NCBI GenBank assembly: GCA_023250515.1
Contig: JAHFAO010000010.1
Span: 1 to 34,356, forward strand
From: Deltaproteobacteria bacterium
Lineage (GTDB): Bacteria; Desulfobacterota; Binatia; UBA9968
DNA: 34,356 nt
Direction: 5' to 3'
In this document: in pieces, positions 5,773 through 34,356 of the stretch
Layout of the letters: each line of letters starts with the position of its first letter
Position numbering within the stretch: the stretch's first letter is position 1
Notes under the pieces: generated by a model
Seen by the model: only the letters and a program-made list of their open reading frames with translations
Told to the model about the DNA's origin: nothing
Database searches by the model: none
Position numbers and translations under genes: made by a program

Positions 5773-6795
5773 ATGTTGCGAAGCAGAAATTTCAGATTGG
5801 TCACAACCTCCTGGACTTTTTTTCTTGTCTTGCTCCTGGTAGTCGCCTTGCCGGTGTGGAGCGAGACTCTCGACGAGCTCCACAAGAAGGCTCTAAAAGA
5901 AGACGGGGTTCTAAACTGTTATTGTTCACTCGCTCAGATCAATGCAGAGAAGATTTACCCGGTGTTTGAAAAGCGCTTTCCCGGTATCAGGATCAACCAT
6001 GTGGATGCTACGTCCGATAAGCTTGCGGCTCGCGCTATCACTGAAGCTCGAGGGGGCAGGGTTATTGCTGATGTCCTGGAATTTGGACTTGAGAACGTAA
6101 TACAGGTTTATGAGCAGGGCCTTGTGCTAGAGAAGCTCCCGCCTGAAGCGGCAGACTATCCGGCTACCTTAAAAGGATCATATTGGGTTGCGAACAATAT
6201 GATCTTTTTCGTCGGTGCATGGAATACCGATCGGGTCAAGAAGCAGGAAGAGCCCAAGTCTTTTGACGATTTTGCCGATCCCAAATGGAAAGGCAGGCTG
6301 ATTGCTGAGCCGAGAGATGCGGAGCTGGTCATAGGGCTGATGCACAAGCACAAGAGCCTGGAGAAAGCCCGCGCCATCCTCAGTAAGATCGCCGCCAACA
6401 ACGTGGAGTTCCACAAGGGACACTCGCAGCTTGCAGAGTTATTAGTGGCCGGACAGGCAGGGGCTTGTTTTACCTGCTATTCTCACCATTATCCGCCGCG
6501 GATCAAGAAGGGGGCGCCGCTGGGTTATTTTCTTACAGAAGGAATCGCAGGGATCATCGTAGTTGCAGTCATGAAGAATCCGCCTCATCCGAACACCGCG
6601 TGGCTCTTCGCGCGGTGGGCTGCGTCAGAGGAGGGCCAAAAGGTTTATGCCATGGGCGGCCGCACACCGGCTCATCCGAAGGTCGAACCCACTGAGAAAA
6701 TCCGGCCGAAGACAATCTATGCGGTTGGGGCCGACGACGTGAAACAGTTTCCCAAGTACGAGAAGATATGGAAAGAGATATTCAAATTGCGGTGA
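5773..6795 (+). CDS. ABC transporter substrate-binding protein (extracellular solute-binding, Fe3+/polyamine type), paralog 1
   Basis: 340 aa with N-terminal signal peptide; ARAITEARGGRVIADV and WLFARWAASEEGQKVYAMGGRTPAHPKVEP. Closely similar to the next ORF. Confidence 0.87.
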   Translation: MLRSRNFRLVTTSWTFFLVLLLVVALPVWSETLDELHKKALKEDGVLNCYCSLAQINAEKIYPVFEKRFPGIRINHVDATSDKLAARAITEARGGRVIADVLEFGLENVIQVYEQGLVLEKLPPEAADYPATLKGSYWVANNMIFFVGAWNTDRVKKQEEPKSFDDFADPKWKGRLIAEPRDAELVIGLMHKHKSLEKARAILSKIAANNVEFHKGHSQLAELLVAGQAGACFTCYSHHYPPRIKKGAPLGYFLTEGIAGIIVVAVMKNPPHPNTAWLFARWAASEEGQKVYAMGGRTPAHPKVEPTEKIRPKTIYAVGADDVKQFPKYEKIWKEIFKLR

Positions 6796-6886
6796 GGGGA
6801 AACGAGCGTAAGAGAGAAGGCCACGCTTGTCGTAAACAGAGTATGAAACCAAAGCGGGTACAGGAAGCAAGGTTGACCTGACCTGA

Positions 6887-7933
6887 ATGGATTCGATAGA
6901 AGGAGGTTTTATGCATAGAAAAAAACGGCTAGGTTTTCTCATTCTTTGCGGTCTGATTCTGAGTTGCCTGCTCTTCCTCTCCTACTCGCCGGCAACGAGC
7001 CAGACCTTAGACGAGGTCTATAAGCAGGCGTTAAAGGAGGGAGGGACCCTTAACTTTTACGGGACCCTGGCCCAGATCAATGCAGCCAAAATTCTTCCTG
7101 AGTTCGAGAAGCGCTTCCCTGGGATTAAAGTCAATCACGTTGACGCCACTGCTGATAAACTTGCGGCCCGCGCTATTACCGAAGCCCGTGGAGGAAGAGT
7201 CATAGCGGACATTTTCCAATTTGCGCTTGAAAACATCGTGCAGGTCTACGAGCAGGGGCTTGTCCTGGAAAAGCTTCCACCCGAAGCGGCGGCCTACCCC
7301 GACAACTTGAAAGGTTCGTATTGGCTGGCGTCCGAACCGATCTTTATTATTGGCGCTTGGAATACGAACTTAGTCAAAAAAGCGGACGAACCCAGGCAAT
7401 TTGAAGACTTTGCCGATCTTAAATGGAAAAACAAGCTAATTGGCGAGCCCAGGGATGCAGAGCTGCTGATAGGCATGACTCACAAGTATAAGAGCATGGA
7501 GAAGGCTGTTTCCCTGCTTAAGAAGATTGCCACAAATAGTGTGGAGTTTCATAAAGGCCACTCCCAGCTTGCTGAATTGTTGGTGGCGGGTCAGGCCGCG
7601 GCCTGCATCACCTGCTACGCCCACCACTACCCGCCCCGAATCAAGAAGGGCGCTCCGGTCAACTATATGCTGGCGGAAGGAATCGCTACTATAACTGCAA
7701 CCGCGCTTCCGAAGGGCGCGCCTCATCCGAACACGGCGTGGCTCTTCGCGCGTTGGTCCGCTAGTGAGGAGGGACAAAAGGTTTATGCCATGGGTGGCCG
7801 GACGCCGGCCCATCCTAAGGTAGAGCCGGTTGAGAAGACTCGGCCGGAAAAAATCTACGCCGTGACTGCCGCCGAGCTTAAAGAGTTTTCTAAATACGAG
7901 AAAATTTGGAAAGAGATCTTCCGGCTCCGGTAA
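6887..7933 (+). CDS. ABC transporter substrate-binding protein, paralog 2 (start may be internal Met at 6911)
   Basis: 348 aa; long shared blocks with 5773..6795 (KRFPGIKVNHVDAT.DKLAARAITEARGGRVIADI; HKGHSQLAELLVAGQA.ACITCY.HHYPPRIKKGAP). RBS-like aggagg precedes the 6911 ATG. Confidence 0.87.
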   Translation: MDSIEGGFMHRKKRLGFLILCGLILSCLLFLSYSPATSQTLDEVYKQALKEGGTLNFYGTLAQINAAKILPEFEKRFPGIKVNHVDATADKLAARAITEARGGRVIADIFQFALENIVQVYEQGLVLEKLPPEAAAYPDNLKGSYWLASEPIFIIGAWNTNLVKKADEPRQFEDFADLKWKNKLIGEPRDAELLIGMTHKYKSMEKAVSLLKKIATNSVEFHKGHSQLAELLVAGQAAACITCYAHHYPPRIKKGAPVNYMLAEGIATITATALPKGAPHPNTAWLFARWSASEEGQKVYAMGGRTPAHPKVEPVEKTRPEKIYAVTAAELKEFSKYEKIWKEIFRLR

Positions 7934-29894: not shown

Positions 29895-30320
29895 TCAATC
29901 GTCGTAGTGTTCAGGCCGCACGGCGGCGCGTGAAGATTTCTTCTCCGCCTGGTGGCGCTTCCCCGCGAGGAGCTTAAGCTTGGCGCGCCGTGAGCGCTTT
30001 CTTTTCTGCCGGCGGATCCGTGCAATCTCTTGCTGTTCCGCAGACTCGGCTCCTCTGAGCTTCACCTCGATTTTGTCCAGCAGGATTCTCCTAGCCAAAA
30101 AACGATTGAGAGCCTGCGAGCGCTCTCTTTGGCACTTCACCCGAATGCCCGTGGGCCGATGGTGGAGCACAACACAGGTGGAAACCTTATTGACTTTCTG
30201 ACCGCCGGCTCCCGAAGAGCGAACAAATTGTTCCTCGATGTCCTGCTCCCGAACACTCAAAGCGCGCATGCGTTCTAACAGGGATTTTTCTTTCCCAGGT
30301 GAAACGATATTGAAAGCCAT
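29895..30320 (-). CDS. peptide chain release factor-like (RF-1 domain, GGQ) protein
   Basis: 141 aa; [49 protein letters not shown] and a basic C-terminal tail. Confidence 0.87.
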
Positions 30321-30779
30321 GGTCTAAGGTTTAGCACAGTAAGAGTCCCGGAACGAGGAAGACGACAGCAAATAAAAGAAGCAAAACAGGTGGTTGAAGA
30401 GGGCTATCAAGATTCGAGATCAAGATTCAAGACTTGACCGCGGTAATGTCTTCGAGTCACGATCACGAACACGGCTGTCATCTTCCTATTGCCCAGTGCC
30501 TCTTGCCTTCTCACGCCTCACAGCTCAGGCCGCACGCCTTTTTTCCATTTGACGCCTCGATTTTCGCGAGTACAATAAGCGGTTAATAAGGTTGGTCTGG
30601 CGCTTGATCGTCACAATCACGAACACGATCACGACTTGCTAATCATGGTTGGGTCCGTCCGATCCGCTCACATCTTTGCACGCACACCTCGGCTCGGATT
30701 GCCTTCTTATTGTAGGACCTCCGGGCTAAGCCCCGCTACGCAACAAAGCAAGCCCGACGCCAACACGCTTCTTCGACCC

Positions 30780-31670
30780 ATGCGCGCATTACTGTCGTAC
30801 CTTCCTGACCGGTCACAGATTACTGCATTCGTGGAGACCGTATTTTCCAATATAGTCGGAAACTTATTTTCTAGCATAATACTGTTGGTCGTAGGTTACT
30901 TGGCCGGTAGGTGGTCAGATTACACGTGTAAAACCAGGGCCTTTAGACGGATTTTCGGCACACGAGCGGGAAAATCGGGCGACCTGCTTATAGTTCTTGA
31001 CACTATTCGAGATACTCGACTCCTCCCATCGTCAGAGCAACAGAAAATCGGCATTTCTAATGCGGGCTCGTCTCAACCCGGCCCGCGATTTTTCAAATCG
31101 TTTCCGGATGGTCACATAACTGCCATTAATGGGCCCACAGGAAGTCTCCTGCCGGAATGTTCTGCAAGAGGGGCCGCTTATCTCCTTGAGGCCTTCAGAG
31201 GAGTCCGTGGACTTTCTGCTAAGACGATGTCTGATAATACAGCAAGTCCTCAGTGGAACGGCACGTTCATCACTCTTGGCAGCTCGTACTCGAATATCAA
31301 GACGGACGATATTAAACTTCTCCCAGAAAACCCATGGCTACTTAATGATTCAGGACAGTTTACATTCAAAGACGGGACTGCGATCACAGTCGAACAGCGA
31401 TATGACAAGGGATTGATAATGAAGCTTAATAATCCCTACTCTGACGGTCATGTTCTGATAGTGTGTGAAGGCCTCGGCGAATGGGGGACCTCGGGGTCCG
31501 CTTGGTTTCTAGCAAATAATTGGAGAAAACTAAACAAGCGATTCCGGAAGAATCCCTTCTTATTGGTTTTGGCAGTGACCAGCGGCACTGACGAGTCTGC
31601 CCGTGAATTGCAAGCGTATGGTCTAGAGAATTGGATGTGGCATGTAAAGAAGTATCTCCGCATCGTGTAA
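30780..31670 (+). CDS. uncharacterised protein with one N-terminal TM helix and a soluble domain
   Basis: ORF 30636..31670; likely start MRALLSYLPDRSQITAFVETVFSNIVGNLFSSIILLVVGYLAGRW. Soluble part includes FKSFPDGHITAINGPTG and LIVCEGLGEWGTSGSAWFLANNW. Confidence 0.65.
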   Translation: MRALLSYLPDRSQITAFVETVFSNIVGNLFSSIILLVVGYLAGRWSDYTCKTRAFRRIFGTRAGKSGDLLIVLDTIRDTRLLPSSEQQKIGISNAGSSQPGPRFFKSFPDGHITAINGPTGSLLPECSARGAAYLLEAFRGVRGLSAKTMSDNTASPQWNGTFITLGSSYSNIKTDDIKLLPENPWLLNDSGQFTFKDGTAITVEQRYDKGLIMKLNNPYSDGHVLIVCEGLGEWGTSGSAWFLANNWRKLNKRFRKNPFLLVLAVTSGTDESARELQAYGLENWMWHVKKYLRIV

Positions 31671-31794: not shown

Positions 31795-32208
31795 ATGGAT
31801 CCGTTTTCTGCGTTTAAGCCACTACGGAATAAACTAAGGCATTTCAGCTTCGAGTCAGTCCTATCGCTTTCGGTCAAGAAATTACACGACCTGAAGAACT
31901 TTCCAATTCAAGAAGTGACCAAGTACCCGCCCTGGTTTCTTCTCTTATTGATCAAGTGGTCTGCTCTCAATTCAGATCCAGGGTACCGAAGGTATCGAGA
32001 TGCGGGGAGAAAAATGTACCGGGAGTCTTTTCTCGCCTCTTCGTCCTTGGCGATGACACTCTGTCTCATCGCTTGGCCAAAAGTAAATGACAAGATTGTT
32101 ATGCCAGGCGCACATCCGGTCCCGCATTTCTCATCTCAGTTTCGTTTTCGTATCTATTGTGCGAGGTTCTTGCTCACGTCGATCCAGGGGTCGGCGATCT
32201 TCTCGTAG
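31795..32208 (+). CDS. hypothetical protein, possibly truncated
   Basis: 137 aa; MDPFSAFKPLRNKLRHFSFESVLSLSVKKLHDLKN...; 3' end runs into the antisense GST coding region. Confidence 0.35.
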   Translation: MDPFSAFKPLRNKLRHFSFESVLSLSVKKLHDLKNFPIQEVTKYPPWFLLLLIKWSALNSDPGYRRYRDAGRKMYRESFLASSSLAMTLCLIAWPKVNDKIVMPGAHPVPHFSSQFRFRIYCARFLLTSIQGSAIFS

Positions 32209-32939
32209 CGCGCGATATCCTCCGGCCGCAGCCACTTCGTGATCGCCGTCTCGTAGGACGGGCGAGTTTTGACGCGCTCCCACCACTTGGCAACGCCGGG
32301 CTTGTTGTCCCACATGGGCGAGAGCCTCAGCATCTCGAGCCGCACCATGTAGGGGATCGCCGCGATGTCGGCGAGCGAAAAGTCTGGCCCGGCGAGCCAC
32401 GGGCCTTTCTCGGTCGACTCCTCAATCCATTTGAGCAGCTTTTCGAAGCTCTTGGTCGCCTCTTTGCCCATCGGCGAGTTAAGGCCTTCCTCTACCCCTG
32501 CGCGCTTGTATTCGGACTGGCGCTGCAGCGGCGCCTTGGCGAGCTGGGCGTCGCGCTGCTCCTTCGAGAGGCTGGCGAGCCGCGCGCGGTTAGCGGTGGC
32601 GAAGGTGAAGACGATGCAGGCAGGATGGATGTATTCGTCCATCAGCTTCTTGAACAAATGCGCCCGCGTCCGGTCGAGCGGATGGCGCGGCATGAGGGGG
32701 GGTGTGGGAAAAGTGTCGTCGAGGTAGTGCATGATGACCGTGGATTCGACGATGACGTTCCCGTCATGCACGAGTGTCGGCACCACGCCGTTCGGGTTGA
32801 GCTTGAGATAGGCGGGGTCGAGCTGATCGCCGTTCAGGGCCATCAGGTGGCTTTTCCATTCCAGCCCTTTTTCCGCCAGGGTCAGCCGCGCCTTCTGGGC
32901 GCAGACGGACGTTGTCCCGTGATACAGTTCGAGCATCAT
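32154..32939 (-). CDS. glutathione S-transferase family protein
   Basis: 261 aa; MLELYHGTTSVCAQKARLTLAEKGLEWKSHLM, NPNGVVPTLVHDGNVIVESTVIMHYLDDTFP, WLAGPDFSLADIAAIPYM. Confidence 0.92.
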   Translation of the reverse strand: MMLELYHGTTSVCAQKARLTLAEKGLEWKSHLMALNGDQLDPAYLKLNPNGVVPTLVHDGNVIVESTVIMHYLDDTFPTPPLMPRHPLDRTRAHLFKKLMDEYIHPACIVFTFATANRARLASLSKEQRDAQLAKAPLQRQSEYKRAGVEEGLNSPMGKEATKSFEKLLKWIEESTEKGPWLAGPDFSLADIAAIPYMVRLEMLRLSPMWDNKPGVAKWWERVKTRPSYETAITKWLRPEDIARYEKIADPWIDVSKNLAQ

Positions 32940-33025: not shown

Positions 33026-33066
33026 GTTTGCTCTTGACGGCTCGCGCTCGACTGTATTACTAGCCC
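33026..33066 (+). repeat. 41-nt direct repeat with promoter-like sequence, copy A
   Basis: gtttgctcttgacggctcgcgctcgactgtattactagccc; one mismatch to 34058-34098. Confidence 0.9.
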
Positions 33067-33218
33067 GGATTATGCACTGTTGAAAATTACCCGAGTTTTT
33101 CTGCTTGGCGCCCTTTGCGCCTTTGCGCGAGATTCTCTGCGTGCGAATTGGATTTTCCATCGCGCCAAGACGCCAAGAACGCAAAGAATCTTCTATAACC
33201 TTTAAGCCCATAATCCGG
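33065..33218. repeat. inverted-repeat-bounded (MITE-like) element
   Basis: Perfect 10-bp termini ccggattatg (33065-33074) and cataatccgg (33209-33218); internal complementary cgcctttgcgcgagattc / gaacgcaaagaatc. No ORF. Confidence 0.7.
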
Positions 33219-33311
33219 AGGGGATATAAACCAAATGGTTTTCATTCCGATGTTACGCGGGAGCCCGTGTGTCTTGACACATCGCCGTGCAGTCTGGCAA
33301 ACCGATGAACG

Positions 33312-33644
33312 ATGAAGCTCCCCAACGGCGACCGCGCCGATCTCGGCACGAAGATCGAGGATTATGTGCTGAACCCTCGACATTGGGAGGGGCGCCATAA
33401 GGCGCGGGTTTTCGAGTCGGTCCTCGGCATTACGCTGGCCAACCGGGAAGTGTTGCGTCATGCCATTCTTTCGGCGGCCGAGAACTCGGACGAGGCCGAG
33501 CCACTCGGAAACAATGGTCATGGGGAGGTTTACGTTCTGCGTTTTCCGCTAGAAACGCAGCGAGGGCGCGCGACGGTTCTAACGGTGTGGATCATCCGAG
33601 ACAGCGAAGACTTCCCCCGGTTGATAACTTGTTATATACTCTAG
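33312..33644 (+). CDS. DUF6883-like domain protein
   Basis: 110 aa; MKLPNGDRADLGTKIEDYVLNPRHWEGRHKARVFESVLGIT...ATVLTVWIIRDSEDFPRLITCYIL. Confidence 0.75.
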   Translation: MKLPNGDRADLGTKIEDYVLNPRHWEGRHKARVFESVLGITLANREVLRHAILSAAENSDEAEPLGNNGHGEVYVLRFPLETQRGRATVLTVWIIRDSEDFPRLITCYIL

Positions 33645-33647
33645 ACC

Positions 33648-33893
33648 ATGATCGGCGAAATCAAAATGCATGACGTGGTGGCCTTGCTGCAAGACGTGCG
33701 AACGAAGCACTTCGAGAGCGGTCGGCCTTTGCTTTTACGCCGTGGTCAGATCGGCACCGTCGTGATGACTTACCCGGATGGCGCGCGCGAAGTCGAGTTC
33801 GCCGATCGCGACGGCCGCGCGTTTGCCATCTTACCCCTTCGGCCTGATCAGTTGATGGTTCTCCACGACACCCCCGATTTCGCGGCCGCATAG
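33648..33893 (+). CDS. DUF4926-like domain protein
   Basis: 81 aa, starts 4 nt after the upstream stop; MHDVVALLQDV...LLLRRGQIGTVVMTYPDGAREVEFADRDGRAFAILPLRPDQLMVLH. Confidence 0.78.
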   Translation: MIGEIKMHDVVALLQDVRTKHFESGRPLLLRRGQIGTVVMTYPDGAREVEFADRDGRAFAILPLRPDQLMVLHDTPDFAAA

Positions 33894-34057
33894 CCGAGCG
33901 CCAAAGTTCCCTTTGTCCGCTTCGGGCTAACCCAACCAGTCTTTCTCTTAGAGTTTTCTGGGATGGCAGTCGGGTCATTGCTTGACATTGCATCGACCGC
34001 GCATTGCGCCGCTCAAGGAAGTTCAGGTTCTGTTTGGTGTGTCGGCTTCACCGCACC

Positions 34058-34098
34058 GTTTGCTCTTGACGGCTTGCGCTCGACTGTATTACTAGCCC
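34058..34098 (+). repeat. 41-nt direct repeat with promoter-like sequence, copy B (upstream of hydrolase)
   Basis: gtttgctcttgacggcttgcgctcgactgtattactagccc. Confidence 0.9.
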
Positions 34099-34173
34099 CT
34101 TCAAAGCGCCGGTTCACAACAGGTTGGCTGCATCGATCCGGTCTCTGACTAACCTTCTTACTCAGGAGAAGAT

Positions 34174-34356
34174 ATGAACCAAATGGTTTTCATTCATGGG
34201 CCCGGGGCGGGAGGATGTGCCGAATCGTTTGTCCATCAGCTCAAACACTATCCGGGCAGCCTCGCGCCGACGTTGCCTGGACATCTGGAGGGAAAACCCT
34301 GTCCCAATGTGGAACGATATACGGAATGGTTGAGGGGATGGTTATGGTCCAAAGGT
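34174..34356 (+). CDS. alpha/beta hydrolase, N-terminus only (cut by window end)
   Basis: ATG at 34174 after aggagaa: MNQMVFIHGPGAGGCAESFVHQLKHYPGSLAPTLPGHLEGKPCPNVERYTEWLRGW; HGPGAGG oxyanion-type motif. Confidence 0.72.
   Translation, partial: MNQMVFIHGPGAGGCAESFVHQLKHYPGSLAPTLPGHLEGKPCPNVERYTEWLRGWLWSKG

Follow-up and report, generated by a model that had tools for sequence, protein, structure and literature searches.

The window, by which we mean the whole 34,356-nt stretch of DNA analysed, is one complete contig (G000:C173) of a fragmented metagenome-assembled genome (MAG; 342 contigs, 86% completeness, 5.9% contamination), and the gene at its right end is therefore visible for only its first 61 codons (34174–34356, plus strand). 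These codons share 84% protein identity with alpha/beta hydrolases (61 aa, compared with the copy in genome G001), and a full-length relative matches the Abhydrolase_6 family, in agreement with the earlier note that drew attention to the region. The 5' region of this hydrolase occurs twice in the same orientation (plus strand), to the right of a divergent GST-like gene (32157–32939, minus strand; Pfam GST_N/GST_C). A direct-repeat search of the window recovered both of the blocks described earlier, each repeated once, in the same order and with one mismatch: a 41-nt promoter-like block (33026–33066 and 34058–34098; 40/41 positions identical) and a 25-nt core at the start codons (33223–33247 and 34171–34195; 24/25). 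The core extends to 37 nt that include the ribosome-binding site and first codons (33211–33247 versus 34159–34195; 32/37, 86%). Given the base composition, the window would be expected to hold ~2e-14 chance pairs for a 41-mer and 5e-5 for a 25-mer. The only other direct repeats of at least 25 nt with at most one mismatch come from two tandem paralogous substrate-binding-protein genes (5773–7933), an ordinary arrangement.

Two small co-directional genes on the plus strand, separated by 3 nt, lie between the copies. Pfam confirmed their identities as DUF6883 (33312–33644; 110 aa; PF21814, E 4.4e-22) and DUF4926 (33648–33893; 81 aa; PF16277, E 1.5e-20) and matched no other families. The ~810 bp between the repeats had been thought to contain these two genes only; the two genes stand, but the interval also holds the pair's own 64-bp 5' flank (33248–33311, plus strand) and a dispersed stretch (33903–33969). 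The 64 bp were assigned to the pair on the strength of their alignment to G013 (87%) and, from 33272 onward, to G003 (85%). The left edge of the cargo given by the G013 homology (~33248) meets the end of the left repeat (33247), the two having been set independently; the right junction was placed within 33970–34057 (88 bp, unassigned). Read by eye, the dispersed stretch is a degenerate 3' gene end on the minus strand (...EKDWLG*PEADKG), possibly that of a VapB/DUF2281-type antitoxin gene, and its homologues flank DUF4926 on both sides in G005 and precede the pair in G013. Inspection of 33894–33970 by eye for RYYYAAC/GTTRRRY motifs gave no convincing attC site, and an Rfam scan of 31.5–34.4 kb returned only one chance miRNA match. 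Farther left, the first 50 residues of an ORF at 31795–32208 match the N-terminus of antiphage GapS1 (NCBIfam E 1e-6), apparently as a fragment, and an adjoining 344-aa ORF (30636–31670) has no family match.

The two copies of the hydrolase 5' region have fared differently. In the right copy, 60 nt separate the promoter block from the start block; the left copy has 84 nt more, and in place of its spacer (33067–33210) stands a dispersed, MITE-like element (33065–33218) whose 10-bp inverted ends, CCGGATTATG / CATAATCCGG, lie at 33065–33074 and 33209–33218. The core of this element (33104–33188) is a palindromic repeat (CTTGGCG..CTTTGCG..CGCGCCAAGACGCCAAG) with ~20 other matches within this genome and numerous ones among related genera. 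The first hydrolase ATG reads ATA in the left copy, and the second opens a 26-codon leader ORF (33235–33315, plus strand) composed of the relic start and the cargo flank, with a TGA that overlaps the DUF6883 ATG (ATGA). The overlap may allow translational coupling, and the hydrolase relic could in this way contribute to expression of the DUF pair.

Comparison with relatives indicates which copy belongs to the hydrolase. A pattern search found the promoter block in only 3 of 151 genomes of the class. In G524 it occurs once, with the spacer and start of the right copy, before an intact hydrolase and without DUF genes (88% identity over 34065–34356; the left block matches G524 at 28/30 over its central 30 nt). 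On the strength of this single-copy arrangement we read the right copy (34058–34098 and 34159–34195) as the native hydrolase 5' region and the left copy as a fragment, or relic. The G524 gene stands in another genomic context, without synteny to the window's left flank, and in G006, G005 and G001 an intact hydrolase is found at other loci with other promoters, again without the DUF pair; all four genomes are thus relatives of the kind that the earlier note proposed to look for. A further genome, G014, carries two hydrolase 5' fragments consisting of promoter, ribosome-binding site and ~15 codons (L034, 597–651; L036, 4537–4596), each directly before fragments of other toxin-antitoxin (TA) genes, and no close hydrolase was found in that genome. 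One of these fragments appears by eye to be joined to a DUF4160 fragment at a shared ATGCGCC. The 270-bp region of the G014 relic was considered as a copy counter and dropped, most of its matches being dispersed repeats.

Several features suggest that DUF6883 and DUF4926 form a TA pair of type II-like kind. The AlphaFold2 model of DUF6883 (pLDDT 96.2) consists of helices followed by a four-stranded sheet, and its best Foldseek matches in the PDB are CdiA-CT structures 6CP9 and 6CP8 (probability 1.0; TM 0.70 to 6CP9), at ~15% sequence identity. Both are listed as BECR-family enzymes with tRNA-Ile as their substrate, and their active residues are K, Y, H, R and T (PMC9086364). In the DUF6883 alignment, K14 and Y18 are invariant, T106 is near-invariant and R103 is present in most rows, as is H24, which is missing from the L144/L146/L147/L166/L167 subgroup; the resulting K-x3-Y, H and R-x2-T resemble the CdiA-CT active-site residues as mapped by spacing rather than by residue-level superposition. 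DUF6883 is modelled as a BECR-fold nuclease close to the CdiA-CT tRNases, a predicted ribonuclease toxin, and DUF4926 (pLDDT 89.5; weak SH3-like fold matches) as an SH3-like barrel and putative antitoxin.

The distribution of the two genes is consistent with these roles. Complete adjacent pairs occur at ~24 loci across the phylum, with further pairs in cyanobacteria. Among the loci examined, ~23 have an intact DUF4926 but a broken or missing DUF6883, and full-length DUF6883 lacking a DUF4926 partner turned up solely at contig ends or, in L165, inside a fused 435-aa frame. Such frequent orphaning of DUF4926 and not of DUF6883 is the asymmetry expected of an antitoxin and its toxin. The 435-aa frame of L165 (in G053) is perhaps a polymorphic-toxin-like fusion. 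The genome of the window has two more loci: a second pair (L136, G000:C84) flanked by a 239-nt coding repeat of 76% identity, and a third locus (L148, C255) in which DUF6883 is truncated. Searches of the pair against PADLOC and NCBIfam returned no match, sequence searches of the PDB with both families gave nothing significant, and no DUF6883 was found in phages; plasmids held 10 weak relatives, one of them under a gene annotated as a minor capsid protein. A literature search on DUF6883 found no paper.

A survey of the flanks of other loci, which the earlier note had recommended, revealed that repeated neighbour gene ends are a recurrent companion of DUF4926. The 1.2-kb left and right flanks of each of 46 DUF4926 loci were compared in search of direct repeats (E <= 1e-4); 560 sliding windows, drawn from twenty 20-kb stretches in related genomes, served as the control. 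Flanking direct repeats were present at 13 of the 46 loci versus 34 of the 560 control windows (Fisher p = 1.1e-5), the control matches being mostly tandem paralogous genes, about half of them from one stretch (L194). A tighter cut, set post hoc (>=85% identity, <=160 nt), left 7/46 versus 3/560 (p = 9e-7). Both 5' and 3' gene ends are involved. Where the downstream gene is repeated at its 5' end, it is hsdM in L149 (reduced to a 21-nt remnant in L150) or a beta-CASP nuclease in L161; 3' ends are repeated for UbiD in L152, acyl-CoA dehydrogenase in L145 and hsdM in L173, and the repeat in L142 is of DUF2283. At such loci one copy is an intact gene, the other a co-oriented fragment, and the two enclose DUF4926, alone or accompanied by DUF6883 and other TA genes. 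The layout seen in the window, a pair between broken and intact neighbour gene ends, therefore recurs in other bacteria.

Individual loci add some detail. In L145 (G020:C648), the acyl-CoA dehydrogenase 3'-end copies flank a nucleotidyltransferase-like gene plus the DUF6883/DUF4926 pair, and an additional partial copy of that 3' end lies inside. In L149 and L150, from two genera, DUF4926 directly precedes hsdM and is accompanied by a degraded antitoxin cassette or a VapBC-like pair. Cyanobacterial loci were considered as an independent set for the flank survey and dropped: HIP1-type GCGATCGC arrays dominate their repeats, which are mostly not gene ends, and only L205 has an apparent repeated gene 3' end.

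The repeated sequence in the window amounts to 78 nt; at these other loci, relic and intact copies differ in a way that bears on how the repeats arose. Across seven coding repeats, relic and intact copies differ at 74 synonymous and 50 non-synonymous positions. Duplication of a target followed by decay of the fragment should leave mostly non-synonymous coding differences, and the synonymous excess is significant against a synonymous fraction of 0.27 (p = 2e-14) and against 0.39 (p = 3e-6), a rough estimate for one neutral and one selected copy. In G012, one segment of the hsdM relic matches the intact G020 gene, from another genus, at 92% identity and the hsdM beside it at 72%; for the adjoining segment the order is reversed (90% to its own neighbour, 80% to G020), a mosaic that suggests recombination between lineages. 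The relics of UbiD and beta-CASP most resemble their own neighbours, as in-situ duplication predicts and as either model allows. Simple target duplication followed by decay would thus fit these loci poorly; their relic and intact copies look like two diverged functional homologues, and for that reason "duplication" may be the wrong word.

The surroundings of the pair leave room for different orders of events in the window. DUF4926 lies 2.4–3.2 kb from a gene for an arfB-like release factor in G000, G013 and G005 (arfB at 29895–30320 in the window, 1901–2326 in L020 and 8667–9092 in L024), with different genes between. The intervals contain different TA or defence-like genes, and the site is a possible integration hotspot. 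DNA identity of the DUF pair to G013 and G005 is 89–95%, and that of arfB 88–89%. Recent horizontal transfer was considered from the DNA identity and dropped, arfB being about as similar, so that identity alone is no proof of recent transfer. The vicinity of arfB may be a hotspot or a place that the DUF pair has long occupied; the hydrolase could be a newcomer in the window and the pair older there, while the geometry of the repeats favours insertion of the pair into the hydrolase 5' end.

The reading we prefer, with a probability of about one half, is that the predicted TA pair entered the 5' end of the hydrolase via recombination anchored in a neighbouring gene, leaving one complete promoter and start in place. 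Incoming DNA would have carried the DUF pair beside the 5' end of a homologous hydrolase; a crossover within the 5' homology would have joined it to the resident gene, and an illegitimate join in the first codons of the resident hydrolase would have closed the other side. The product would be a resident 5' fragment, the pair and a complete hydrolase, in that order, after which the resident fragment would have decayed, losing its start codon and acquiring a repeat element in its spacer. We regard the feature as real, its cargo as a predicted TA pair and the flanking by gene ends as recurrent; the mechanism is moderately supported.

Insertion of the pair together with duplication of its target, here ~140 bp of hydrolase promoter and start, in the same event is close to what the earlier note had proposed. 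The order and sharp start of both repeats agree with it, and so does the end of the left repeat where the cargo begins. The UbiD and beta-CASP relics, each nearest its own neighbour, count on its side as well. Insertion of restriction-modification genes with long target duplication was reportedly described by Nobusato et al. in 2000 (Gene 259:99), as related in PMC1643837 and PMC3031569. Such insertion, with target duplications of long and variable length, has been proposed for Helicobacter pylori restriction-modification genes, which gives the idea a precedent. Against these points, the copies at other loci have the look of diverged homologues, with coding differences mostly at synonymous sites, an hsdM relic segment resembles the gene of another genus more than the one beside it, and neither a transposition enzyme nor an end structure was seen. 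The synonymous bias and the G012 hsdM relic are the reasons why we favour, from sequence comparison, homology-anchored illegitimate recombination over insertion with long target duplication, which we consider unlikely.

Tandem or segmental duplication followed by decay, in which the hydrolase once stood twice (or the DUF pair had its ancestral place near arfB) before the upstream copy was reduced to its 5' end, would account for DUF4926 lying within ~3 kb of arfB in three genomes at an identity comparable to that of arfB itself, and for a hydrolase that is away from arfB in G524 and G005 and adjoins the pair in none of the relatives compared. The earlier note had named two full-length tandem hydrolases as the observation that would speak for such a history. 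No tandem of this family was found in the relatives examined (in L027 the hydrolase stands after a different alpha/beta hydrolase), but DUF4926 does occur near arfB without the hydrolase in G013 and G005. At least six unrelated neighbours would each need a tandem duplicate that lost exactly its distal part, and we judge this history improbable, more so than target duplication. An assembly artefact, with the repeat as a chimeric join at a metagenomic contig end, might be suspected from a contig that ends inside the hydrolase and from the fragmentation and contamination of the MAG. Mis-joining of one sequence would not produce copies that differ from each other (1/41, 5/37 and other spacers); hydrolase 5' relics also precede TA gene fragments in G014, and other examples of the layout are on 46–58 kb contigs, making an artefact very improbable.

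Known systems offer partial parallels to the account that we prefer. Like the restriction-modification insertions, the locus combines addiction-type cargo without a recombinase, long direct repeats of the target and a neighbour that stays usable; unlike them, it carries TA genes, its repeats are neighbour gene ends, and several copies look like diverged homologues. The single-copy region of G524 represents another context rather than a strain-level empty site. In Vibrio type VI secretion system (T6SS) clusters, effector-immunity modules are displaced by homology-facilitated illegitimate recombination (PMC5361080), and those arrays likewise show toxin-immunity cargo beside a conserved anchor gene, together with leftover gene ends and immunity genes that have been orphaned; the T6SS cluster itself is the anchor in that case, whereas here many unrelated housekeeping or restriction-modification genes serve as anchors and the pair is stand-alone. 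The predicted BECR fold of DUF6883 recalls the CdiA-CT tRNases of Klebsiella 342 and E. coli 3006 (PDB 6CP9 and 6CP8), which are C-termini of CdiA, whereas DUF6883 stands alone as a protein of 110 aa and is partnered by DUF4926. Unconventional circularizable structures and recombinase-less islands (PMC5426353) also hold recombinase-free cargo between direct repeats; those structures are excised between the repeats, whereas the present locus is known from linear sequence alone.

How chromosomal TA genes move between sites without a mobility gene is an open question. Tentatively, stand-alone TA pairs may spread without a recombinase by travelling with the end of a conserved neighbouring gene that serves as a homology arm; each landing would then leave the resident gene end truncated to one side of the pair and a whole gene to the other, and flanking relics would record where pairs had landed. 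A pair between a truncated and an intact neighbour gene end is a countable signature, which points to homologous neighbours as landing pads, and the layout suggests how TA genes enter beside a neighbour without destroying the neighbour's gene. DUF6883 and DUF4926 themselves gain a testable predicted function, as a BECR-fold RNase and its antitoxin.
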